Made by a program: the position numbers and the translations under genes | In this document: piece after piece, positions 5,101-49,600 of the stretch | How positions within the stretch are numbered: the stretch's first letter is position 1 | How the letters are laid out: the number at the start of each line of letters is the position of its first letter | Notes under the pieces: model-generated | Database searches by the model: none | The model's input: only the letters and a program-made list of their open reading frames with translations | Told to the model about the DNA's origin: nothing | Assembly: GCA_026545225.1 (NCBI GenBank) | Contig: CM048845.1 | Coordinates: 125,104,533-125,168,532, forward strand | DNA: 64,000 nt | Source: Cornus controversa | Taxonomy: Eukaryota; Streptophyta; Magnoliopsida; Cornales; Cornaceae | Direction of reading: 5' to 3'

Positions 5101-8100
5101 GTGAAGAGGCTGTTGTTACATTTGAGGGGATTGCCATACTTACTCCAAGGTAGGTGGTGTTAGTTTGATACACTCTTAGTTCCCTCATCAATTATATGTC
5201 CTGTATGCTGGTTGTAAAAAGATCTCATAGAAGTATTCTCTGTGTAGGGGCCGATATAACGTCGAACTTCATCTTTCATTTATGCGGCTCCAAGGGCAAG
5301 CTAATGATTTTAAAATTCAATATAGCAGTGTTGTTCGCCTTTTTTTACTGCCTAAGGTTCTCATTTTAGCTCTCTCTCAAGGCAATGATATTAGTGTGTG
5401 TGTGTCTTGATTACTCTGTTTACGAGTGGTTACCTCCTTGAATGCAAGATTAATTCATTTGTTAATAGTTGATCTATTACATAATTACGTTAGTTATATT
5501 GCAGTTGATTGACCTGTTATGTTCTGTAAGATGCAATCATGCTCAGAACTCATTTGGATTGTTCTTTGTTTGTGCAGTCTAACCAACCACATACCTTTGT
5601 TGTTGTCACTCTTGATCCACCAATTCGTAAAGGACAAACTTTGTACCCACATATTGTGTTACAGGTATTCCTAGTTTTGTTGCATTGATGTATGTCATTG
5701 TAGCTCTCTTACTATTATATGGCCATTTGCTGATTGGATGTCTGCCATCTGTACACAGTTTGAAACAGACTATGTGTTGGAAAGCACTCTGTCAATGAAT
5801 GAAGATCTTCTGAATACCAAGTATAAAGACAAGTTACAACCTTCATATAAGGTAATAATTAAAATGATGCTTGAACTTTGAGCTACTGTATTTTAGGAAC
5901 CGATTATTTTTCAGTCTAAATGTAAATGTAGCTGTATTATTTTTTAGACATTAAGGTTTATATGAACTTTGAGAGCCATTTTAAGTGAGTTGGGCATTAT
6001 ATTTACACACGTATTATGATTGCCTTTCCTTTAAACTATCAGGGACTCATTCATGAAGTGTTCACATTGATTTTGCGTGGCTTATCTGGCGCCAAAGTGA
6101 CTAGACCAGGAAAGTTCCGCAGCTGTCAAGACGGTTATGCAGTGAAGTCATCACTAAAAGCTGAAGATGGAGTCCTGTATCCACTTGAAAAGGGCTTTTT
6201 CTTTTTGCCCAAACCCCCTACCCTTATTCTTCATGAAGAGGTATGATTTTGTTTTACTCATGACAGATGCTATGCTTGCATGCTGTGAATTTAGTCATAT
6301 GCTATAGATGTCTTATTATTAGTATTCGTTTGGGGTGTTGTCTTGTTTCGGTGTAGATCGACTATGTTGAGTTTGAGAGGCATGCTGCTGGAGGCTCAAA
6401 TATGCATTACTTCGATCTTCTCATCAGACTGAAGACTGAACAGGAACATCTCTTCCGCAATATCCAGAGGAACGAATACCACAATCTTTTTGACTTTATC
6501 AGGTCAGCATGAGCTTCGCATGTTTTGCCAGCTATTAGTCCAAATTTTATTTTTTATTCCAACTGACTTTATCATTGATGCAGTGGGAAGGGTTTGAAAA
6601 TCATGAACTTAGGTGGTGTCAAACCTACAGATGGTACCCTAAAAGTTTTGGAGAATGATGATGATGATGCAGTCGACCCACATCTTGAACGAATTAAGAA
6701 TGAAGCTGGTGGAGACGAAAGTGATGAGGAGGTAAGCTTGATTCTTTTCATGAGAACCATAAGATTTTCGCTTTTTAATCTTGATCTAATGGTGGTCAAT
6801 GTACTTGGTTTCCATATTTTATTCATAATTGCATAATCTCAAAAATTGCAAAATTTTTAGATGTTGGAAGTTAGAGGCTTATTTTAATTTTTGGTTTTGG
6901 GTTCGGTTTAGTTCATATTATATTATCTATCTTTAACTGTGAAGAATATTAAAACAATTGGAAGTTTTTTTTTTCTTTATGAAAAAAGAAAATTGGGATT
7001 TGGATACTTTATCATTTATATTTATCTGTCTTTTTGTTTTTATTTTGTCCAGTGGTTCTTTCTATGCTTGTGTCCTGTCTATATGTCCATGTCTCTGTCC
7101 TGGTGAATTCATGCATTGTTTGACATGGTGACTTTCTGTAGGATGAAGATTTTGTGGCTGACAAGGATGATGGAGGTTCCCCTACTGATGATTCTGGGGA
7201 AGAAGAGTCTGATGCTAGTGAAAGTGGAAATGAGAAAGAGGTAAACCATTTCATTGTATTCTCTTGCTCTCTGCCTTTAATTGAACATCCACATGAATTT
7301 TAATTTCACATTGAATGATTGGTAAATTCAGAAACCTTCCAAAAAGGAAGTCAAGAAGGACCTTTCTGCTGCTAAGGCATCTTCAAGTAGGAAGAAATCC
7401 AAAGATGGTGATGAAGATGGTTCAAAAAAGAGGAAACAGAAGAAGAAAAAGGATCCCAATGCACCAAAGAGGGCAATGTCTGGTTTCATGTTTTTCTCTC
7501 AGATGGAAAGGGAGGTTAGTATTTTGGATACATATGATTGGTTCATGGTTGTTTCCTTTTTTAATATAGGATACTTGTTGATACATAATGGGGCTAATAG
7601 TTGTATGCATGTCATTTTATAAAGATTTTAAGTATAGTGCTGCAAGTGAAATTGTACAAGAGGTTGGGATGTAATTAAGGAAAAAGGAACTACAAGAAAC
7701 TCATGATCTGAAATGCAATCTAGTTGAGTTTATCTTGTTGAAGTGAGTGGGATATTTACTGTTTGTTGAGGAATTTGTTATATCAGCATAGTGGACCGCA
7801 GTATGTGGCAGAAAAGAGTGCTGTGTGGAAGTCACACTGCTACTGCCATTTGGTACTACAATAGAAGTAACATGAATTGCAAATGAGATGGCGTATTAAT
7901 TAACCGGAATATTTTCCAAGGCCACTTGAATTTTTGGGGGGTTGAAGACTGGTTACCATGTCACTGCAGTGGATCTTCATGACGTTTGCTTATGTAAATA
8001 CAAAAAGTCTAAAATGTCTTTCTAATTCATCCTGAGTTGTCCCTCTTATGCCTACCTGTCAATGTGAGGGTAAGAGGTTGAGAATAGTTTGTGTTCTAGA

Positions 8101-13562: not shown

Positions 13563-14110
13563 TTAATAGATGCGGGGAATGGGTTAGAGATGAGAAAGGA
13601 GTCTCTCGTCATCCCTAGGTTTAGGTTGACACATCAGCCTATTGCTCTAGGCATAAAAGAACCAATAAACCAAAAGGACATGACCACATGAAGAAAACTG
13701 GTATCCACTTTTGACTTGGGATGACCATAATACCCTGACTTTTCCGTAAACGAAATTGTATAGTAATCAACTCTTACTGATAATTAAACAGTCAGAAAAG
13801 GGGAAAATATCTACTCACACATGCACACATATATACAATTAAACACATATAGTGGAAGTCAATTAACAACATTTCAATATCAATATTACTAGGCTTATAA
13901 AATAGAACTTATAAAAAAATAAAAAATTAGGCCCTCCTTAGTCCCTTGAGTGGTCCGCTCCTGCTTACAAAAAGAAATCCCACCTTGCCTTTCATAATCA
14001 ACAAAGCAACCTAAGAAGAACCTTATGACCAAGGTTTGATAAAAGAAATAAAAGAGGGAATAGTTAGTTATTTCCCATATCCTTCAATACAATACAATAC
14101 AATAGCCGTT

Positions 14111-16155
14111 ATGATTTCCCTACATGATATCTACCGTGTTGTGGCAGCCACTGTCCCTTTGTATGTTGCAATGATCTTAGCCTACCTGTCTGTGAAATGG
14201 TGGAAGCTCTTCACACCAGATCAATGTGCAGGAATCAACAAGTTTGTGGCCAAATTCTCAATCCCACTATTGTCCTTCCAAGTCATCTCCAAAAACAACC
14301 CCTACAAAATGAACCTGAGTCTTGTATGTGCAGATTTCCTTCAGAAGCTTCTCGCCCTTTTCGCGTTGGCCATTATCACCAAATTTAGCTCCAGAGGAAG
14401 CCTCAACTGGATCATAACAGGCCTCTCACTCTCAACACTGCCCAACACTTTGATACTGGGAATTCCACTACTAAGAGCCATGTATGGGGACGAAGCAGCT
14501 CAGCTCCTTGCCCAGATAGTCGTGTTACAGAGCGTGGTTTGGTATAATCTCTTGTTGTTTCTATTTGAGCTCAGCGCTACAAGAGAAACCTTTGTCACAG
14601 CACCATTAGAATCCACAGCAGGTATGTGTACAGATTTCAACTTTTAAGGATATATGCTATTCTAAACCTTTAGTAATTAAGGATGCTATTCCAAACCTCA
14701 GTTATACAAGCTAGCTCGTTAAATAGATAGGCGACTCCATGGAATGAAGCCCTCTGTCATGCTTGCTTTATAGTTAATGCTTTCAACTCCTAAAACACAA
14801 ATTGTTGTTAACTTAGTTTTAGTTGTGTTTGGTTAACTTGTCCAAAAATAAAGTTATGTTGGGTAAACTACTTTAGTCTGAAAAGAATGCTCATATGGGC
14901 CCTGACATATTTCAGGTTTATTCCAATCTCATTTCCTTTATGCAAGTGTATACAACATCAATATTAAATATCCTACCTAAAAAACATGTAGAAATATTGT
15001 TTTATAGCATCAATCTACGTAGCAGTGTCATGATGGTTTCTATATATGTATCAGATTAGCATTTAAGCTAGCCACAACTCCTCTACATAATTAATCTCAA
15101 GAGTGTTTTCTAATTGATGTGTGTACACGTACACTTCTTGAATCTGTCCATTATTACATACATAGGAGCATTTAAATTGCCTGATTTATTTATTTATTGT
15201 TTAAGGGGATCCGGAGACCCAACAAGAAGCACAACAGAAAGAGGGAGGGGAGGATGCAACAAATAGAAGTGCAAGAAAAAGAAAAATTATTCTCATTCTT
15301 CTGACAGTGGGAAGGAAGCTCCTAAGCAACCCGAATACCCATGCAACAATGCTTGGTCTTATATGGGCAAGCATACAATTCAGGTAAGCCTGCACGAGCA
15401 TCAAAGAGTCATAGAGTTATCTTAACTTCACAATGGAATTCAACTTGTTTCAGGTGGGGAGTACAATTGCCAAAGATTGTTGATAAATCAATATCAATAT
15501 TGTCGGATGGAGGACTTGGAATGGCTATGTTCAGCTTAGGTGTGATTAAGAATCCATATGTATTTACATACCATAAATTGACAACTAAAAGAATATATAT
15601 ATATACTTGACTAGTTACTTCCTTTGTTTTACTAATTGATAGGTCTGTTCATGGCATCGAGGTCTAGCATAATAGCATGTGGGAAAAGAATGGCGGTGTT
15701 AGCCATGGCAACGAAGTTTTTAGCTGGACCTGTCCTAATGGCAGTGCCCTCCATAGTTATTGGTTTAAGGGGAACATTGTTTAGAGTGGCAATTGTGCAG
15801 GTGAAAAAATATTAATCGTCGTGTCTGTATAAGTAGTCTACAATGGATCAGGATCAGGATATATGTGTATATATATATATATATATAAAATGCTCAAACT
15901 CTGTTCTATGTGATGCAGGCAGCTCTTCCTCAAGGAATCGTGCCATTTGTATTTGCCAGAGAGTATAATGTACATCCGGACATCTTAAGCACCGGGTAAT
16001 TTATTACACTTGTATTCAACTTCATTGTTCAACTTTGCTAAACTAGATTTTGAGATTCTGCTTTGTTTTGGGTTGGGTTGGGTTGTAGGGTGATCTTTGG
16101 CCTGCTAATTGCATTGCCAATAACGTTGGTCTACTACTTCCTGCTAGCACTGTAA
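14111..16155 (+). CDS. PIN8: Short PIN auxin transporter, PIN8-like
   Basis: PIN proteins carry auxin; short PINs lacking a long cytosolic loop act mainly at the endoplasmic reticulum and tune intracellular auxin (known for PIN5 and PIN8). Six exons join in frame to 358 residues: 14111-14621, 15206-15383, 15454-15539, 15643-15800, 15919-15995, 16089-16155 (stop TAA). The start [20 protein letters not shown] is canonical; an upstream in-frame start codon at 14036 would only add non-conserved residues. Visible landmarks are [30 protein letters not shown], a short charged loop at about 170-200 ([20 protein letters not shown]), [34 protein letters not shown] and the C-terminal [19 protein letters not shown]. 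Five hydrophobic helices on each side of the loop fit the ten-helix fold. Length and sequence fit PIN8 (about 367 residues) better than long PINs. Intact, with no stop or frameshift. Confidence 0.95.
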
Positions 16156-37187: not shown

Positions 37188-40100
37188 GATCAATATAATT
37201 TAAGACTGTCAAAGAGTGGGGAATCCCTGACGGTCTAGCAATTGAAGAAGCTGGTGCAGCTTCATTCCCCGGAAGTGGTAGTTTTGTTGGAAACCAAGAA
37301 TAGCTCTAAACTTCTTTTTGCAAATTCAGAGATCTATGGGTCTCATGAATAAGTATATATGTGGAGCAGATGGAATTAACCTTATGTGACAATGTGATGT
37401 GCAGATACGTGAAATTAATAAATGTGATTTTCATATTTTAGTGGAAGTGATTTCTCCCCAGGTTTGGTATATGGGTGTTAACCATTTTGTATGCGAGCAC
37501 AGACGACCAAACTAGAGCTTCCCAGTGGGAGATGTTGAAACAAGTCAGACATGGGTGGTCACCTAGATGGGCCATTATTGGTGATTTTAATGACCTTCTA
37601 TCCCCGAATGAAAAGATTAGTGGTCGGTTGAAACCTCAATGGGTTTTCAAGAATTTTAATAACCTAGTTGAAGAGTGCAAATTACATGATATTGGGTTCA
37701 TAAGATTCCCTTATACGGGCTGCAATCATAGAAGTGGATCAGCAAATGTCAAAGAGCGTTTTGATCATGCTCTGGTGAGTCAGGACTGGCAATCTTTGTT
37801 GCCAAGGGCTCGTCTCCAACATTTTCTAGTTGCTGGCTCTGATCATTGTGCACTTCTTCTTGATTTGAAGCATGTGGTTCGTAAGGCCTCTCGTCAGTTT
37901 TATTTTGACTCTAGATGGGTTTCTGGGGGAGACTGTAAGGAGGCTATTGACAAGGATTGGCATGTTGAAAGGCCGGGCTCGAGAATGTTTAAATGGGCAT
38001 CCAAAATTAAAAGTTGTAAGGTGGCTCTCATTGCATGGGCTCGCCATAGTAACTGGAATTCCCGCCACCAAATTGAGTGTTCTAAAGCTCGTCTTATGCA
38101 ATTGAAGGAACAAACCATAAACTTCAATTATGATCACATGCGAGAAACAGAACTTGAGCTAGCTAAACATTGGAAAGAAGAGGAACAATTTTGGCATCAA
38201 AAGTCTCATCTGAAGTAGTTGCAGGCCAGGGATAAAAATTCTAAATTCTTTCACGCCTCCACGGTTCGTAGACGAAGTCGGAATCATATTTTCGGAGTTG
38301 AGGACTATAATGGAGTTTGGCAGGAGGGGGAGGAAGATATCCAATCTATCTTTCTTCAATACTTTCAAGATCTCTTCCGCGCCCAGGCGCTTGGTAATTC
38401 TCTCAATTCATTCATAATGTGCCTCAGAGATTCACAGTCAAAATGAATACTAAGCTTATGGAAGCCCCCACAGAAATGGAAATAAAGAATGCGGTGTTTA
38501 CGATGCAACCTACCAAGGCTCTGAGACCAAATGGTTTCACTAATCTTTTTTACCAAAAATACTGGGACATTGTTAAACAATATGTGATTTCTTTGGTTCA
38601 GAGCTTCATGCATTCTGGCCATTTGTTATCAAGCATGAATCATTCCAATATTATTCTTTTTCCAAAAACAGTGGCCCCTACGACTGTTGAGCAGTATCGT
38701 CCTATCTCTTTATGCAATGTGTCATATAAAATTATCGCCAAAGTACTTGCGAATAGGCTTAAAGGAGTTCTTTCTTAAATTATCATTGATTCTCAAAGTG
38801 CATTTGTGGCTCATAGACAAGTCTCAAACAATATCCTAACAACTCATGAGATCTTGTACTATTTGAAGAACAAAAGAAAAGGCAAACAAGCATTTTTAGC
38901 ATTGAAGCAGGATATAAGTAAGGCGTATGACTATATAGAATGGCCTTTTTGTCGACAATATTTACCCAATTAGGTCTCCATCCCCATTGGATCAATCTCG
39001 TTCATGAATATGTATCCACTGTTTCTCACTCGATTGTAATCAATGGCTAATCAGTGGATTTTTTTAAACCATCTCAAGTCTCCGCCAAGGTGATCCTCTT
39101 TCGCTTATCTTTTCATTTTATGTGCAAAAGCGCTCTCAAATGCGTTGTAGGTGGCTTCCCATAATCATATTCTTTTTGGAATCAAGATTAGAAGGCATGC
39201 GCCGCCTGTTTCTCATCTTTTTTTTGTGGACGATTCAATCATTTTTTGTAAAGCTTCAACGTCAGAGATTCGTTCTGTTAAGCGCATTCTCACTAATTAT
39301 GAACACGTTTCTAGCTAGAAGATTAATTTCTCGAAGTCATCTATTTTTTTCTCTAAGAACGCCAGACCTCATTGCGAAGATCCATGTGTCATTTGCTGTG
39401 TTTATCAGAGGAAGGCAAAAATATTCATTATCTGGGATTACCGGCAGTGATTGGTCGCTCTAAATTTGAAGTGTTTCAGTATGTGGCCCAATGAGTTTCT
39501 GAAAGGCTTGCCTCATGGAAATCACAATTTCTTTCTCCAGTAGGGAGGGAAAGCTTGGTGAAGTCAGTGTTGAGTGCTCTCCCAACATATCTCATATCGT
39601 GTTTTAAACTCCCCAAGAATTTATGTAATTGCCTCACGTCTTAGATCTCGAAATTCTAGTGGGGATCTAGAGGCGATGAGTCGAAGACGCACTGGGTGGA
39701 TTGGAAGTCTTTGTGTGCCACAAAATGTCAAGGAAGGCTGGGTTTCTGACAGATAGAAGCTTACAATCAAGCATTCTTAGCTAAACATGGGTGAAATTTC
39801 AAGGTGTAGCAAAGAGGCATTGCATTTAAATTAATGAAAGCGAAATACTTCCTTGATTGCTCTTTATTTCATGCGAAACTGGGATCAAACCCATCATAGG
39901 CATGGAGGAGTATCTAGGCAACTCAATGTATCATTGAGAATGGATGTAGATGGGTGGTTGGGAATAGAAATTCTATTAATATTTGGTCAGAGAACTGGGT
40001 TCCGAGCCTGTCGTATCATTTATCCTCTTGGTTATCTCCCTCGATTTGTCAAAAAGTTAATGAGTTAATTGATTCAGCTAGAGGCAGCTAGAAGTCTAAT

Positions 40101-41372
40101 TTGATTCGATCTGTTTTTCATCCAATTGAGGTTGATGCAATCCTTCGATGCCCGTTGAGCATTTGTGATCGCGGAGACAGATGTGTCTGGGGTTTTAGTC
40201 AATCGGACTAGTTTTCAGTGAAGTCAGCGTATCATATTGCACATTCCTTATCTTTGGAAATTCATAAGTCAAATAGTAAGGGTGATACAAGTACGTCGGG
40301 GAGGGATCCAAGAGTTTGGCAAAGCATCTGGAAGTGCGAGGTGAAGCCAAAAATCCAACATTTTTTGTGGAGATGTTGCACAAACTCTCTCCCAGTTAGG
40401 CAAAATTTGCAGAGGAGGCGGATGGTGAGTAATGTTGTCTACCCTAGGTGTGGTTTGAAGGATGAGTCGGTTGCCCATCTAATTAGATTTTTGAATGTCA
40501 TCATTCACTTGAAGTTTGGAAGCTTTCGCTATTACGGTGGGATTTTGTGGGTGTACAATTTCATTCTTTTGAAGAGTGGTGGCTCTCTTTGAGTGTCAAG
40601 GGCGTCAGACTGGGGAGGAGTTTCCACTCCTAAGTTTTGTATCTTCTTTTTGTTGGTATATTTGGAAGGCGATGAATCATTTGGTGTTTAATGGTGAACT
40701 TTGGGGCACAAATACTATGGTCCATTTGGCTTTGGGGCAAGCTTGGGAGTTTATGGAGGCGTCATGTTCAGAGTTTTCAAGGATCAATACCGATGGTTTA
40801 TCATATTTGTAGGTTACTTCTAGTTCCCGCTGGTGTCCTCCCTCTCCAGCTGTGGTTAAGTACAATGTGGATGCATCATTCCATGGTTTTTTTTTGGGGG
40901 GGGGGGGGGGGGGGAGGGGGGGAGCGGTCTTTCGAGATTGTTCTGAGTTTAAAGAGTTTCCGGCTTTGAACGCTACGGTTGTAGAAGCTTTAGCGATTCG
41001 TAAAAGCAGTGGTGTGGCGCAAGGGTTGGGTTTTTCAAACTTTTGCTTTGATAGTGATTCATTGATTGTATGTAATGTTATTCTAAGGATCTTGCCGGGT
41101 CCGTCTGATATACAACCCATTGTCGATGATATTCAGGTGATGTTGCAAGGCATTCCCTTAGTTAGCATTTGCCCTGTCTATAGGCAATGGAATGCGGTGG
41201 CTCATGCTTTGGCCATGTTGTCAAGGGGGCCTTTATTGTGTGATTCTAAACTTGAGAATACACCCGCCCCCCAAGCGTGTGGGATCTTACTTGTAATGAT
41301 TGTTGTTTCTCTTAAATCAATTTTTATCATCTTTGCCAGGAAAAAAAATATATATATATATATAGATATATA
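37188..41372 (+). pseudogene. Dead plant LINE (L1-type) ORF2
   Basis: Only the second ORF of a non-LTR retrotransposon is present, broken by stops and frameshifts. Order: endonuclease start (CQRVGNP, VQLHSPEVVVLLETKN, 37207-37335); main endonuclease body 37475-38218 (AIIGDFNDLLSPNEK, HDIGFIRFPYTGCNHRSGSA, VAGSDHCALLLDL) ending in a TAG read as in-frame continuation (ARDKNSKFFHASTVRRRSRN); reverse transcriptase 38419-39350 (VEQYRPISLCNVSYKIIAKV, DISKAYD, and FVDD in place of the usual F/YADD at 39223-39234); a zinc-binding RT-associated domain 40218-40592 (VWQSIWKCEVKPKIQHFLWR); RNase H 40852-41260 (VKYNVDASF, FDSDSLIVCN, QWNAVAHALA). It ends in an A-rich/TA tail at about 41340-41372. ORF1 is missing and I found no TSD. 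It cannot encode a working element. Confidence 0.93.
40896..40922 (+). repeat. Long homopolymer G tract
   Basis: Nineteen G, one A, then seven G interrupt the RNase H domain of the dead LINE right after VDASFHGFF. Such a tract can form a G-quadruplex and is also a typical place for sequencing length errors. Confidence 0.9.
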
Positions 41373-42111
41373 ATTTGAGATTTTACCGTCCGTTTGGTTA
41401 TATAAAAATTAATACAAAAAAGTAAAAGTAAATGAATTTAAAAGAAAGTTAGGTAAATAAAAGAAAAATAAAATTTTCAACATATATTTGTTTGCCATGA
41501 ATTTTTTTCAAAAAAGTTATAGAAAATTGTAATTTTATAGTTTGGAATACATTAAATTTACAAGACAAGGTATTATGTAAATTTATAAAACTTTTTCAAG
41601 AAATCAAAATTTTCTTATGTTATTTGTAGGAAAATTCGGTGGGAAAGTTACTTTCCTACAAAAAATTTCTTTTCCTGCTAACCAAATTCTTGTTCAAAAA
41701 AATTTTATTTCTTTTCCTTTCTTGCTATTTCTATCTAACCATACGTAGGCTAAGAAAGAATAATAATATAAAAGTGTTATTTTAATATTTAATATATTAA
41801 TATTATCACAGTAATCGGGCAAGTCCGGGACTCGGTCTGAGTGCAACAATACTTGTGTAGAGTTACTAAACATAGAAGAGTTCAAAAATACCAAAAGATG
41901 TAAAAAGAATAAATAATAATAATAATAAAAATGATGGAGGGAGACAGTAAGAGAGATAAACAGGATTTTAGTTCAATAAGTTAGGAAAGTAGAAAATTTT
42001 GAGAGTGATGAAATTTTTTGTCACTTTCCAATATCAATTATCCCTTGTATATAAATGAACATTGGATAAATTAAATTTTAAAGTCTCACTATTAATATTG
42101 GTAAAAAAAAA
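41373..42111. other. AT-rich spacer
   Basis: AT-rich DNA between the LINE tail and the first inverted repeat. I see no gene, RNA or bounded element. Confidence 0.5.
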
Positions 42112-42680
42112 TACAATTTCTAAACTACCCCTTATATATAACATTTAAAAAATAAAAAAAATACCAAAAACTCAAACTAATGAAATTAATGTAAGGATGA
42201 TGGTGGTGATAATAATATTTTACATTATATAAGGAATATTAGTTGAGCTAGCATTATTTTAAAATTTGATCTTTTTTTTTTTTTACTTACTTTAATAACT
42301 TTAAAATAATAATAATACGAAGTGTATTTATAGAAAAATTGAAATAAAAAATTTACTTACTTTATTAAATTTAAAATAATTTGAAGTAGGTAGACTCATG
42401 CCATCTGAGTCTTTGCTAAAAAATACTTTTTTATTTCAATTTTTCTATAAATACACTTATTATTAGCATTTTAAATTTAATAAAGTAAGTAATTTTTTTT
42501 AAGAAAAAAGATCAAAATTTAAAATAATGCTAGCTCAAGTAATATTCCTTGTATAATGTAAAATATTATTACCACCACCATCATCGTTGCATTAATCTCA
42601 TTAGTTTATGGTTTTGACATTTTTTCGTTTTTTTTTTAGTTTTTAAATGTTATATATAAGGGGTAGTTTAGGAATTGTGT
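42112..42680. repeat. 570-bp inverted repeat (foldback)
   Basis: The left arm begins ACAATTTCTAAACTACCCCT and the right arm ends AGGGGTAGTTTAGGAATTGT. Matching internal blocks include ATATATAACATTTAAAAA, GATGATGGTGGTG (opposite CACCACCATCATC), AATATTTTACATTATA, GAGCTAGCATTATTTTAAA and TATAGAAAAATTGAAATAAA. The arms meet near 42390-42415 (AGACTCATGCCATCTGAGTCT). No coding sequence or clear TSD was seen, so it may be a foldback or MITE-like element. Confidence 0.85.
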
Positions 42681-43400
42681 TTCAAAAGTTGGCATCACTT
42701 TGCAAGTACATGAGTTAAGTTTGGATACTTATTTACTCACTTTGTAAGTAGAGGAGGTATTATGCTCATTTGAGAAATTTCGGGTTTTTTTTGGCACTTT
42801 TGCCTAAAAAAAATTAGGGTCTAATGGGCGTTGAATGTTACGCATTCTAGCCTCTTAATTTGCATATTTTATTCTCTTAGTGATAGGTTATATGTGATTT
42901 TACTCTGTTTTTGTATTTTCTATCTTTTTCAGGGCTTAATGATTATTTCAGATAAAACTATGATTTTGGGCTTTTAAAGATGATATCCAAGAAGGTTATA
43001 TGAAGCCTATATCTAATGGGTCCATTCAACTCTATATTTCAACTCAAATTAGCCCAAGGAAGAGGTTCAAGAGAATTACAACTGCTTAAGGAGGCTACGG
43101 GCCTGAAGTCCAATTCTACACTTAATCCAGTTTTAATCCCGTTTTGGAAAGTGGACTAAAAAGCTTATTTTCGAGGGTCAATTTAACTTAATTCTCGCGA
43201 TAGTTGAATGAAATTCGATTCTGGACACTTTTGTATTTCACGTAAATTTCATGAATCGGACTTCTACTGGGTCAAAACTTGGGCCGAATATCATCAGAAA
43301 AATATACCTATTTAGGGCTGCGGGAAAATCCTAATTATCTCCTAATTGGATTAGGACTTTATCTCCTAATTGGATTAGGACTTTATGTATTCTCTTGGGG

Positions 43401-43406
43401 TATAAA
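43401..43406 (+). promoter_or_regulatory. TATAAA in left palindrome arm
   Basis: GGGGTATAAAGAGGTGAATT sits about 580 bp into the left arm, where an LTR promoter is expected, and would drive transcription toward the palindrome centre. Confidence 0.5.
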
Positions 43407-44992
43407 GAGGTGAATTGAAGGCTGTTTTAAAGAGAAAAGAAGTGGAGGCCAAGGCATAGAAGACAGAGACAATCCGGGTTTTATTTATTCATTATGTCTT
43501 TTATTATTTTGTTATCTTCTTCTTCTACTATGTGTAACTAAACTCCTCAACTAGAGTTGAGGAGGAAACCTCCATTAATGAAGTGAAGTTCTTTTGTTCA
43601 TTAATTGATTCCCATGTGTGTGATTTAATTGCTTATGATTTTTGCTTCTTGTGATTAATTATTTTATAATTCTTTCATCATCTATATCATGTATATGTGG
43701 TAGTTAGAAAGTATTATAATTAATCTAAGCTTGGGTTTGTATTTCTTAAAAGTGATAATCTTTGATCTTGTGTTTTTCATTAAATTGGATACATAGGATA
43801 CTTAGAATTTTACACTAGTAAAGCGAAGGAAAATCTACCTTTTTAATATATTTTTCATAGTGTTTTATTGTTAAATCTTGAGTAAGCAATAGATTGATTT
43901 CTTGATTGCTACTCCAAATTTGAGAATTAATAAATGAATATTAGAAGCTTTATGGATTTAATGGTGATGGAATCCGAAACCTTAGTTATTTTCTCTATTT
44001 GATTTTAATTGTGTTATTTTATTTGCATGTTAGTTTAATCTCTCTCAAATCAACCAAATTTTGTTTTAAACTAGATTAGTTTTAAATTAATTTGAATTTG
44101 TATTACTTTTTCTTCTCAAAGCATTCCCTTGGGTTCGACCTCATTCTTGCCGATCTATACTTCAATAGATTCGTACACTTGCAAGTTATTTAACAATTTT
44201 AAAACAACATCAAATTCAAGTGTACGAATCTATTGAAGTATAGATCGGCAAGAACGAGGTCGAACCCAAGGGAATGCTTTGAGAAGAAAAAATTAATACA
44301 AATTCAAATTAATTTAAAACTAATCTAGTTTAAACACAAGTTTAGTTGATTTGAGAGAAATTAAACTAACATGAAAATAAAATAACACTATTGAAATCAA
44401 ATAAAGAAAATAACTAAGGTTTTGGATTCCACCACCATTAAATCCATGAAGTTTCTAATATTCATTTATTAATTCCCAAAGTTAGAGTAGCAATCAAAAA
44501 ATCAATCTATTGCTTACTCAAGATTTAACAATAAAGCACTATGAAAAATATATTAAAAGGTAGATTTTCCTTCGCTTCACTAGTGTAAAACTCTAAGCAT
44601 CCTATGTATCCAATTTAATGAAAAACATAAGATCAAATATTATCACTTTTAAGAAATACAAACCCAAGCTTAGATTAATTATAATATTTTCTAACTACCA
44701 CATATACATGATATAGATGGTGAAAGAACTATAAAATAATTAATCACAAGAAACGAAAATCATAAGAATTTAAATCATACACATGGGAATCAATTAATGA
44801 ATAAAAGAACTTCACTTCATTAATGAAGGTTTCCTCCTCAACCCTAGTTGAGGAGTTTAATTACACATAGTAGAAGAAGAAAATAACAAAATAATAAAAG
44901 ACATAATGAATAAATAAAACCCGGATTGTCTCTGTCTTCTCTGCCTTGGCCTCCACTTGTTTTCTCCCCCAAAATAGCCTCCAATTCACCTC

Positions 44993-44998
44993 TTTATA
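44993..44998 (-). promoter_or_regulatory. TATAAA in right palindrome arm
   Basis: Mirror image of the left-arm box (plus strand TCTTTATACCCC). It would fire on the minus strand, also toward the centre, so the two predicted transcripts converge and overlap. Confidence 0.5.
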
Positions 44999-45648
44999 CC
45001 CCAAGAGAATACATAAAGTCCTAATCCAATTAGGAGATAAAGTCCTAATCCAATTAGGAGAAAATTAGGGCTTTCCCGCAGCCCAAAATAGGTATATTTT
45101 TCTGCTGACATTCGGCCCAAGTTTTGACCCAGTAGAAGTCTGATTCACAAAATTTACGTGAAATACAAAAGTGCCCAGAATCGAATTTCGTTCAACCTAC
45201 GCGAGAATTAAGTCGATTTGACCATCGAAAATAAGTTTTTCAGTCCACTTTCCAAAACAGGATTAAAACTGAATTAAGTGTAGAATTGGGCTTCAGGCCC
45301 TTAGCCTCCTTAAGCAGTTGTAGTTCTCTTGAACCTCTTTCTTAGGCTGATTTGAGTTGAAATATAGAGTTGAATGAACCTATTAGATGTAGGCTTCATA
45401 TAACCTTCTTGGATATCAACTTTAAAAGCCCAAAATCATGGTTTTATCTGAAATAATCATTAAGGCCCTGAAAAAGACAAAAAACACAAAAACAGAGTAA
45501 AATCACATATAAACTATCACTAAGAGAATAAAATATGCAAATTAAGAGGTTAGAATGCGTAACATTCAACGCCGATCAGGGTCCAAAGGCGATTGTATAG
45601 GTAAGCTTCGAAAATTCGATTTCAGACTCTTCATTGTATCTGGTGTGC

Positions 45649-46664: not shown

Positions 46665-49600
46665 TTAACTTCCGACTTCCAGCCACGTTAAACCTCCCAC
46701 AATCAAAAATCTTCCCGGGAGATCCCCAACTGATGGTGCGAGATATGTAATTATTTTCCTGCAAGTGATTATTAAACTTATGATCAAATGAAAACAGCAT
46801 AGAAACATAGCATGCCACATTAAGCAACAAACAGGTTTTAAGTTCAAACCTCTGAATATCGATGTCTGTTACATAGATGAACCCAGCAACATTACTGCAC
46901 AGAAAAAAATTCAATTTGTTAATCACATTTTTTTTTTTTTTGGGCAGAGGCTCATAAATGTCATGGTATGGTATGGTATTTCAAATGGAAGCTACCAATA
47001 ATCCTTTGAGTTTACTCTTCTATTGGAACACACGAGATGGGAAGAAAAATAGTAGGTCCCATGGCACCTACACCTTATACGCACAGTAGAGGCACATGGC
47101 ACAAAATATACATTACAGTCAATTAATACTTCTTATTGATAAATACACTCTTTGGGTTCACGCCTATCTACACTCTTTAGGTTCACTCTTTTACATTAAT
47201 CCATTATGTTGGGACAAAAACAGGGGAAAAGAGAGGAAGGAAAGAAGATGGAGAAAGGGAGTGTGTGTGTGTGTGGGTGTTTTGGATTTGTAGCTGCAAA
47301 ATATTTGGAATCACCAAATCAGGTATAAATTTGAACTTGTTCTCTAAAACAGAAGCAGGATTGATATACTACTACCGTCCATAATGCCTGGATTAAATGT
47401 CATCAACCATATGCTTCATGCCATTTTGATAAAATTCATTTAATAATTAAGGAAGAGTAATTCATCTATACCTTGAAATAATTTGATCTGGTTCTTTGGC
47501 AAATGAAACGGCGAGAATTACATGAAGCAAGTCTCTGTTGATACTAACAGGAACCAACCTTGTAGGATCTGCAGCAGGCTCTGCACCAATTGGCAGAGCT
47601 GAACGTGGAGCCTGTGGTCCACCACCAATACGATAGACTGACAAATCGCTGAAATTTGCGATATTAGAATGCGGGGATAGATCATTCACAAGGCCATAAA
47701 AGTATTCCTGGAAAAAAAATATCAGCATGGTCTAGCTTGGTCATCTCAAGGAAACAAGAAAACAAATATTTATAAGGTACCAAAGTTCTGTAATTAAGCA
47801 TTCAAGATTTCATAGACACAAGCCCAAAGAACTGCAATGACCATCATGCTATTATTTAGTAAGTGAAAAAATTGCCATGTACCCTTATCCTGCAGCTCCT
47901 GGCCCTCTGGCGGGCTTTTGAATTCCTGGATACGACACCGCCTGACCTTTGAAGTTTCACAACATCCACATTACGCTTGTTTTTCAATACATCTTTCAGC
48001 ATGCTGCAAAGTTTCTCCTGCACAGAGTTATTTATACAAGCATATTGTTGAGGATTTAAATATTTAAGTTGCACCATCTCTAATAGCTTAAGCTTTTAGA
48101 GTAGATGGTGGTCAACATGGTATCAGAGCAGGTTTTTGCCTCAGGCAAGGTCCTGAGCTCGAACCTCATCATCACCCTAATTAAAATTGAAGCACATGTT
48201 GGACCAAAAGAAGGCCACACATGAGGGGGCGTGTTGAGAATTTAAATATTTGAGTTGCACCATCTCTAATAGTTTAAACGTTTAGAGTAGATGGTGGTCA
48301 ACACATATAAACACCAACAACCTGGGGTTGTCAATGAAGTCTTTCTTATATAGATTTCTTAATTTAGGAGACAATTCAAGCAAAACTTTCCCCTTTGTTC
48401 AAGCTAATCATAAAAATATAATATATCTACCATGTTTACAATACATAAAGACTACAAAATGGCTAATTTACAATTAAAAATTAAGTTACTCCATGAATTC
48501 AAACAATTTTTCTTTCTTTCTTTTTATTGGTAAGACACACCACTTTGCCCCCAATTGGGACTTAAACCCTCAACCTCCTTTTTTGGAGGTGGAGAAGACA
48601 CCACTCAAGCTAATGTTTGGTTATAATTCAAACAATATTTAGAAGAGCTGCATAAAAAAGTCTTTTCTCCATGAGCTTTACTTCTCAAAACGAAGTATAT
48701 GTTATGAGAAGTATTAGCAGTAAGAGGCAGAGAATAAATAGCATATCAAAAAATTTGATCAAATTATAATATAAGTGAGATACAGCCAGAATTGCCTGAA
48801 TTTCAGACCCCACAATAGGATGAGATCGGGAAATTTTAATTTCATAAAGAAAATGTAATCAACAACTCCAAGTATATCAATACCACAAAAAGGCCATAAA
48901 TACTAAAGCATGCTCTGGGAGGATAAGGTTTGATGTACTATTATAACCTGGTTTGACTTTAACATGTCGCCTAAGAAGAATTGCCTGAATTTCAGATAAT
49001 CCCCAACAGTAGGATGAGATCTGGAAATTTTAATTTCATAAAGAAAATGTAATCAACAGCTCCAAGTATATAAACACCACAAAAAGGCCTTAAATACTAA
49101 AGCATGCTCTGGGCAGAAAAGGTTTGATCTTGTTTGACTTTAACATGTCACCTAAGAAGCTCCAGCTTGCTCATTGGACTTGGCATGTCAGCAAAGTATC
49201 TGAGTGTATCAAGATCATTTATTTGCACAGAATTTATGCAAAACAGTGACATCTAACAACAAGAATACTTGCAGATTGCACTCAGAGCATGGGAATAAAC
49301 ACAGCATAAAGTTCTCAAATGAAAAGCACTTACTTGACCCAACACCAGAACAACACTGGCATTAAATGTATCAATTGCATGGAGAAGCAACTGCATTAAA
49401 TACAAACCAGAAGATTCTTTTGAACATAATATCCCATATAAATGTTAAGCATCCCTACATTAATGTAACTGACAAGGACAAAAATAGATGCTTGAAACTT
49501 AACTACCTCGTAACCAACACCTTCTATCCATCCCATGGTATTGATTACCATGCCTGCAGCTCGAGACTCTGCATTTCCAGCAAATTGTCTTTCCAGAATT

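Follow-up and report, generated by a model that had tools for sequence, protein, structure and literature searches.

A tail-to-tail LTR pair inside one target site duplication in Cornus controversa: a candidate insertion of an aberrant reverse-transcription product

The window analysed here, a 64,000-nt stretch of Cornus controversa DNA (G000:C1:125104533-125168532, from a genome of 771.7 Mb in 61 contigs), carries two LTRs that face each other tail to tail, with their U3 ends outward, their U5 ends inward and one GGGTC target site duplication (TSD) around the pair (Table 1). BLAST aligned the inverted arms with 93.5% identity over 1358 columns, far beyond chance, and a script alignment that also took in short flanks counted 1287 matches, 110 mismatches and 6 gap events. 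A previous reading of this locus, made from the sequence only, had correctly placed two inverted arms here, recognized the 5-bp TSD around them and noted that no internal region separates the LTRs. However, the perfect opposition that it proposed gives way to a difference of ~6.5%, and comparison with intact elements assigned 31 bases of its 35-bp spacer to the U5 end of the left LTR, which leaves a true linker of 4 bp.

Table 1. Features of the inverted LTR unit (positions in the window) and further tail-to-tail LTR pairs (positions in the genome)
Feature	Position	Strand	Basis
Left TSD, GGGTC	42817..42821		sequence
Complete LTR, TAAT...ATCA, 1391 bp, U3 outward and U5 inward	42822..44212	+	comparison with intact elements and solo LTRs
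Linker AATT, U5-U5 joint	44213..44216		sequence
Inverted LTR without ~31 bp of U5; U3 end intact, TGATCGGCG	44217..45578	-	comparison with intact elements
Right TSD, GGGTC	45579..45583		sequence
L061, tail-to-tail pair	C3:41.76 Mb		BLAST, both arms
L062, tail-to-tail pair	C1:46.41 Mb		BLAST, both arms
L063, tail-to-tail pair	C1:106.04 Mb		BLAST, both arms
L064, tail-to-tail pair	C8:43.17 Mb		BLAST, both arms

Both TSD copies abut exact U3 termini; LTRs of this family run from TGAT to ATCA, and the TAAT at the left end of the unit is an altered TGAT. Past the LTR end, intact family elements normally continue with AGTTTTTGGCGCC, and the linker may represent either the first of these post-LTR bases (AGTT, with one change) or filler. 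The joint consists of its 4 bp only, without a templated patch, no TSD lies between the arms, and no internal piece, from either the PBS or the PPT side, was found near the unit. This structure is neither that of a normal LTR insertion, the LTRs being inverted instead of direct and separated by a 4-bp linker, nor that of a solo LTR, as two LTRs occupy one TSD. Such a pair could also have arisen from two independent, adjacent LTR insertions in opposite orientation, followed by a small deletion at the joint, the GGGTC match being coincidental. The family is numerous (about 5200 first-look candidates), close LTR pairs occur in every orientation, and independent insertions predict non-sister arms, as seen at the window. 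Nonetheless, when pairs of host 5-mers next to different LTRs were compared, 3 of 595 matched, one of the three lying inside a single element, and base composition predicts by arithmetic ~0.16% of chance agreement, so that a 5-bp match is expected by chance in only about 0.2-0.5% of cases; furthermore, the inner TSD is absent and the private mutation loads of the arms are equal, and we regard this course of events as unlikely.

When the two host flanks of the unit were joined and searched against the genome, 40 matches were returned, namely the flanks themselves and 38 copies of the left-flank repeat. None bridges the joint by more than 1 base, and hence no empty site for the unit was found in this genome. 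The left-flank repeat, which accounts for all 38 matches outside the window, forms several inverted pairs ~0.8-0.9 kb apart, and the LTR unit starts just past its end. A palindromic MITE-like stretch with inverted arms occupies 42109-42682, and this multi-copy repeat lies beside it at 42717-42815.

Judged by its relatives, the window arm is a true LTR, since at other places in the genome it either forms the ends of elements that have a PBS, a PPT and a 5-bp TSD or occurs as a solo LTR. This agrees with the LTR identity put forward by the sequence-only reading, whose proposed termini are corrected to TGAT...ATCA. A genome search with the arm yielded at least 41 matches (40 of 5202 first-look candidates were scored), several of them direct pairs ~7.1 kb apart, that is, the direct-oriented elements with the same LTR for which that reading had suggested a search. 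In the three pairs examined (C9, C7 and C10), LTRs with these termini enclose an internal region in direct orientation and are flanked by the TSDs ATAGG, GTTAC and GAACA; the PBS AGTTTTTGGCGCCGTTGCCGGGG follows the 5' LTR in all three, and the PPT AGTTTGGGGGTG precedes the 3' LTR in two, the C7 pair showing host-like sequence in its place. In this C7 element (L067 and L068, C7:28581400-28591100), whose second LTR lacks the PPT side, the same host-like stretch of at least 25 bp, ending in the TSD GTTAC, precedes both LTRs; this common lead-in and the missing PPT side may reflect duplication or unequal exchange. One copy (L063) has Retrotrans_gag (PF03732) and aspartyl protease (PF13650) domains in its internal region, and four 1.5-kb internal pieces (L002, L003, L014 and L015) contained no open frame of 110 codons. 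The PBS and the look of gag and protease suggest what we take to be an Athila/Tat-like group. Nineteen of 49 LTR entries, a set that includes paired LTRs of single elements and two entries with unclear ends, were classed as solo, one of which (L029) really belongs to an internal-bearing element; an exact 5-bp TSD flanks 14 of the 19, and 4 of 5 bases agree in another 3, which makes the TSD a usable signal in this family.

These relatives also bear on whether the unit could be a foldback DNA transposon or else an artefact of the assembly or of the reads, both raised by the typical association of large inverted repeats with foldback elements and chimeric long reads. Against the former, the arm is found as an LTR beside PBS and PPT, gag and protease reside in the internal region of one copy, and all relatives examined were LTR elements or solo LTRs. 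Against the latter, including the assembly inversion considered earlier, the arms diverge by ~6.5% with private changes in each, and five loci show five different joints. The foldback interpretation is accordingly rejected and an assembly inversion very unlikely; we give next to no credence to either.

A query across the window joint (40 of 1635 candidates scored) uncovered at least four further tail-to-tail pairs, verified over both arms, and the joints differ in all five verified loci. L061 holds two complete LTRs with 56 nt between them; L062, an LTR followed by AGTTTTTGGC, which reaches four bases into the PBS, a T and an LTR without ~23 bp; L063, a complete LTR, AAATTGCC and an LTR without ~25 bp; and L064, a complete LTR (with changes), AAAAA and an LTR without ~48 bp. 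At L061, L063 and L064 the U3 side of one LTR runs on into the PPT and internal region. This region was traced to its end, short of the PBS, at L061 and L063, and at L064 it ends ~1.5 kb from the PPT, with 1.2 kb of other sequence between the PPT and most of it; the truncated end at L064 carries a 94-bp inverted repeat with two ~47-bp arms. No 5' LTR was found within the 7.5 kb added on the internal-region side of these three loci. L062 revealed no internal piece, and its left LTR is devoid of the first ~280 bp. Across the five loci, not one of the 10 halves combines an internal region with a 5' LTR in the stretches read. Of the tail-to-tail pairs with 5-bp TSDs for which the sequence-only reading had suggested a search, further pairs do exist, but among the five verified loci a TSD surrounds the whole pair only at the window locus.

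A strict tail-to-tail pattern pointed to four new candidate places (C1:120465240, C4:16281001, C5:63697149 and C7:34067602), and at C9:10849565 LTR tails flank the spacer AGTTTTAAAA on both sides, with a PPT beyond the right LTR. The pattern ACATCA-N0..60-ATTRAAGTATAGWTC gave 11 matches at 10 places, first read as tail-to-tail pairs. At three of these places (C2:70403349, C2:96271948 and C9:34821587) the outer flanks reveal a solo LTR that has a TSD of its own (ATAAT, ACCAT and ATTAT) and lies next to a hexamer of host DNA that matches by chance. The same probably applies to C3:68375149, C8:17074415 and C1:9746135; all six were excluded from the tail-to-tail count, and C7:22039632 was dropped because only a 72%-identical partial LTR was present in the fetched stretch. 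As for controls, one pattern (50 forward and 52 reverse matches) was discarded as useless since its TGATCR also matches the LTR's own end. A strict head-to-head pattern, with 0 matches, was an unfair one, as the U3 end is CpG-rich and the U3 word often lost; among the 49 LTR entries, the exact U3 word was retained in 31, the relaxed U3 word in 33 and the U5 word in 44. Close LTR pairs occurred tail to tail at 5 places (strict), and head to head at 1 and in direct orientation at 5 (relaxed controls), three of the last five sharing one length within 0.4 Mb; no significant excess of the tail-to-tail orientation over the controls can therefore be claimed. These three, C2:40286630, C2:40464139 and C2:40647256, are direct LTR-end-to-LTR-start matches of identical length, possibly a duplicated or tandem array.

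The sibling loci carry marks of reverse transcription. The host flank of L063 is a repeat, a second copy of which, at about position 10158 of L063+L075, constitutes a paralogous empty site. Compared with it, host sequence on the left runs up to the LTR and on the right picks up again at the truncated internal end, without clear loss of host DNA and without a 5-bp TSD; the LTR> <LTR-int arrangement thus inserted as one piece. In the 56-nt joint of L061, 17-20 nt derive from the element's leader, and a 22-nt stretch is a near-copy, with 2 mismatches, of positions 5935-5956 (300 shuffled sequences reached 6 mismatches at best), which lie at the very end of the internal-region homology (about 5959). 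We read this as plus-strand LTR DNA that moved onto the 3' end of an unfinished minus strand, copied ~22 nt and switched again. Together, the early-cut internal regions, the L063 empty site and the L061 near-copy point to reverse-transcription errors that joined plus-strand LTR DNA tail to tail. L064, with its extension L076 (C8:43157600-43169000), lies between direct host copies of 395 and 362 bp that are 87% alike, one of which begins exactly at the U3 end; they resemble a very long target duplication, and are possibly a tandem repeat that predates the insertion.

We then compared the ancestry of the arms. After dropping 6 second fetches of the same LTRs from 65 extracted sequences, 59 were aligned and placed in a tree, and each arm pair was set against 1373 other pairs of 53 sequences at family-polymorphic transversion-type sites. 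The window arms were discordant at 11 of 49 sites (13.0 expected) and shared 0 minor variants (2.5 expected), a fraction of 0.38 of the pairs being as extreme on both counts. The corresponding values were 3 of 45 (11.4), 6 shared (2.0) and 0.043 for L061; 3 of 31 (8.6), 7 shared (1.7) and 0.002 for L062; 4 of 42 (11.2), 3 shared (2.0) and 0.066 for L063; and 1 of 37 (9.3), 11 shared (1.8) and 0 of 1373 pairs for L064. Once transitions were added, discordance no longer separated the loci (40-47 sites each), a blurring that we attribute to recurrent transitions, and the ancestry result is therefore based on the transversion-type sites. The tree joined the arms of L061 (support 0.961) and those of L064 (0.973), grouped the L062 and L064 arms in a four-tip clade (0.967) and left L063 unresolved (0.044), whereas the window arms stood apart, their common clade comprising 44 of the 59 tips (0.919). 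On these comparisons, sister arms are well supported at L064 and L062, fairly at L061 and weakly at L063, and the window arms stem from two source copies that are unrelated beyond the family level. Their private mutation loads are 10 and 10. This equality is weak evidence, as 6.4% of random pairs are equally close and the sister-like arms of L062 carry unequal loads of 13 and 34.

This ancestry weighs on two simpler origins. The suggestion that a solo LTR was later duplicated in inverted form is unlikely, as the arms carry different subfamily variants. Alternatively, one plus-strand LTR DNA could have snapped back into a palindrome whose arms were later diverged by gene conversion. Sister-like arms, clearest at L064 and L062, suit such a single-molecule course at other loci, but at the window the arms do not look like sisters at insertion. 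Moreover, their diagnostic differences span 42887 to 44062, nearly the whole arm, with minor variants on both sides, and conversion would need to have covered an entire arm. Snap-back alone is thus insufficient for the window copy, where we deem it very improbable. Inversion of the 3' LTR in a normal element, autointegration and a second insertion into the same 5-bp target were rejected too, since they fail to provide two outer U3 ends in one TSD or require sister arms or a kept inner TSD.

A further route starts from two full-length cDNAs of different copies, end-joined U5 to U5 into a ~17-kb palindromic dimer that integrated by its outer U3 ends, each half being later reduced to a solo LTR by LTR-LTR recombination. 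It would account for the TSD, the U3 ends, the non-sister arms and a U5 end that is trimmed and carries little filler; many LTRs of the family are solo (19 of 49 entries so classed), and LTR-end joining is discussed for 2-LTR circles in PMC1180852. Even so, no full-length LTR-int-LTR half is present among the 10 halves of the five verified loci in the stretches read, no host sequence is clearly lost where the truncated internal end of L063 borders the host, and the L061 patch suggests copying instead of joining. These observations disfavour end-joined cDNAs with a double collapse, an explanation that we find rather improbable.

Four features favour a single integration at the window: a TSD around the unit, a U3 terminus at each outer end, no TSD between the arms and equal private loads. 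The integration of an aberrant palindromic cDNA, already contemplated in the sequence-only reading, remains a live explanation. In our estimate it is somewhat probable that the unit was inserted in a single integrase-type event and represents a faulty product of reverse transcription from a gypsy-type LTR family, a heterodimeric two-LTR cDNA inserted via two U3 ends. Within the particle, plus-strand LTR DNA (U3-R-U5 and a few nucleotides toward the PBS) would have lacked a proper acceptor, for example because minus-strand synthesis halted before the PBS. Its U5/PBS end would then have switched to, or joined, a second plus-strand LTR DNA, which would have been copied back to its U3 start. The expected product is LTR> <LTR, ending in U3 on either side and marked at the U5-U5 joint by a small deletion or by filler. 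The two LTRs would come from two source copies, such as co-packaged RNAs, and integrase would have acted on both U3 ends, creating the GGGTC duplication. Among single-event routes we prefer template switching, with the plus-strand LTR DNAs of two RNAs packaged together as the partners; the L062 joint, with its four bases of PBS, counts in favour of the proposed origin. On the other side, the non-sister window arms fit independent insertions too and demand two source copies here, the window joint shows no templated patch, no empty site was found for this locus, the orientation controls reveal no significant tail-to-tail excess, L063 has no TSD, and L064 shows flanking duplicates of ~360-395 bp instead.

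Plant Gypsy (Ty3-like) LTR retrotransposons share with this family TG..CA-type ends, a 5-bp TSD, PBS, PPT, gag and aspartyl protease, whereas the window unit is arranged tail to tail, has no internal region between its LTRs and exposes U3 at both outer ends. In common with solo LTRs it lacks an internal region and has 5-bp TSD flanks, but it comprises two inverted LTRs of different ancestry inside one TSD. Work from the 1980s reportedly described defective retroviral DNA with inverted LTRs. In an open-access literature search, mostly of titles and abstract openings, no tail-to-tail LTR pair inside one TSD was described; the ingredients, that is, LTRs, TSDs and template switching, are already known. 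In PMC1180852, palindromic LTR-LTR junctions of 2-LTR circles are formed by directly joined ends and partly ascribed to end joining; these circles join U5 to U3 with both LTRs in the same direction and a short palindrome, whereas the window unit is chromosomal, joined U5 to U5 and palindromic over whole LTRs. According to the general scheme in PMC5371799, plus-strand strong-stop DNA normally pairs with the minus-strand PBS copy and is not integrated alone; like the bare arms, it reaches from the U3 start to just past U5.

In Arabidopsis, PMC11624286 proposes a nested antisense EVD insertion, with LTRs 2562 and 1942 bp apart, as the source of an LTR hairpin; read pairs detected no close LTR pair there, and one nested antisense insertion was found. 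Opposed LTRs are transcribable into a hairpin both in that nest and in the window unit, where they lie 4 bp apart in one unit, and the same paper puts forward hairpins from tail-to-tail or nested LTRs as possible silencing triggers in plants (PMC11624286). If the proposed origin is true, the window pair would preserve, as a fossil, an intermediate of reverse transcription gone astray, and two U3 ends would be integrable together, unlike the normal substrate, which pairs a U3 end with a U5 end. The failed step seems to have left its trace in the sibling loci, in that the internal region stops early and one joint near-copies its end. Tail-to-tail loci are also a possible natural source of hairpin RNA, and they open the silencing idea to a test by small-RNA mapping. 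As a tentative and rather doubtful extension, failed plus-strand transfer might be a recurring, heritable source of tail-to-tail palindromes here, with integration of two-U3 heterodimers and hairpin-RNA loci able to silence their own family in trans.

Elsewhere in the window, 48046-48303 contains a direct repeat in two 72-nt copies that are 93% alike and start 186 bp apart, each running TGTTGA...TCAACA. Open frames at 37475-38218 and 40852-41373 resemble the endonuclease and RNase H regions of plant LINEs, and a frame of 203 codons at 14036-14647 resembles part of a PIN-type auxin carrier gene.
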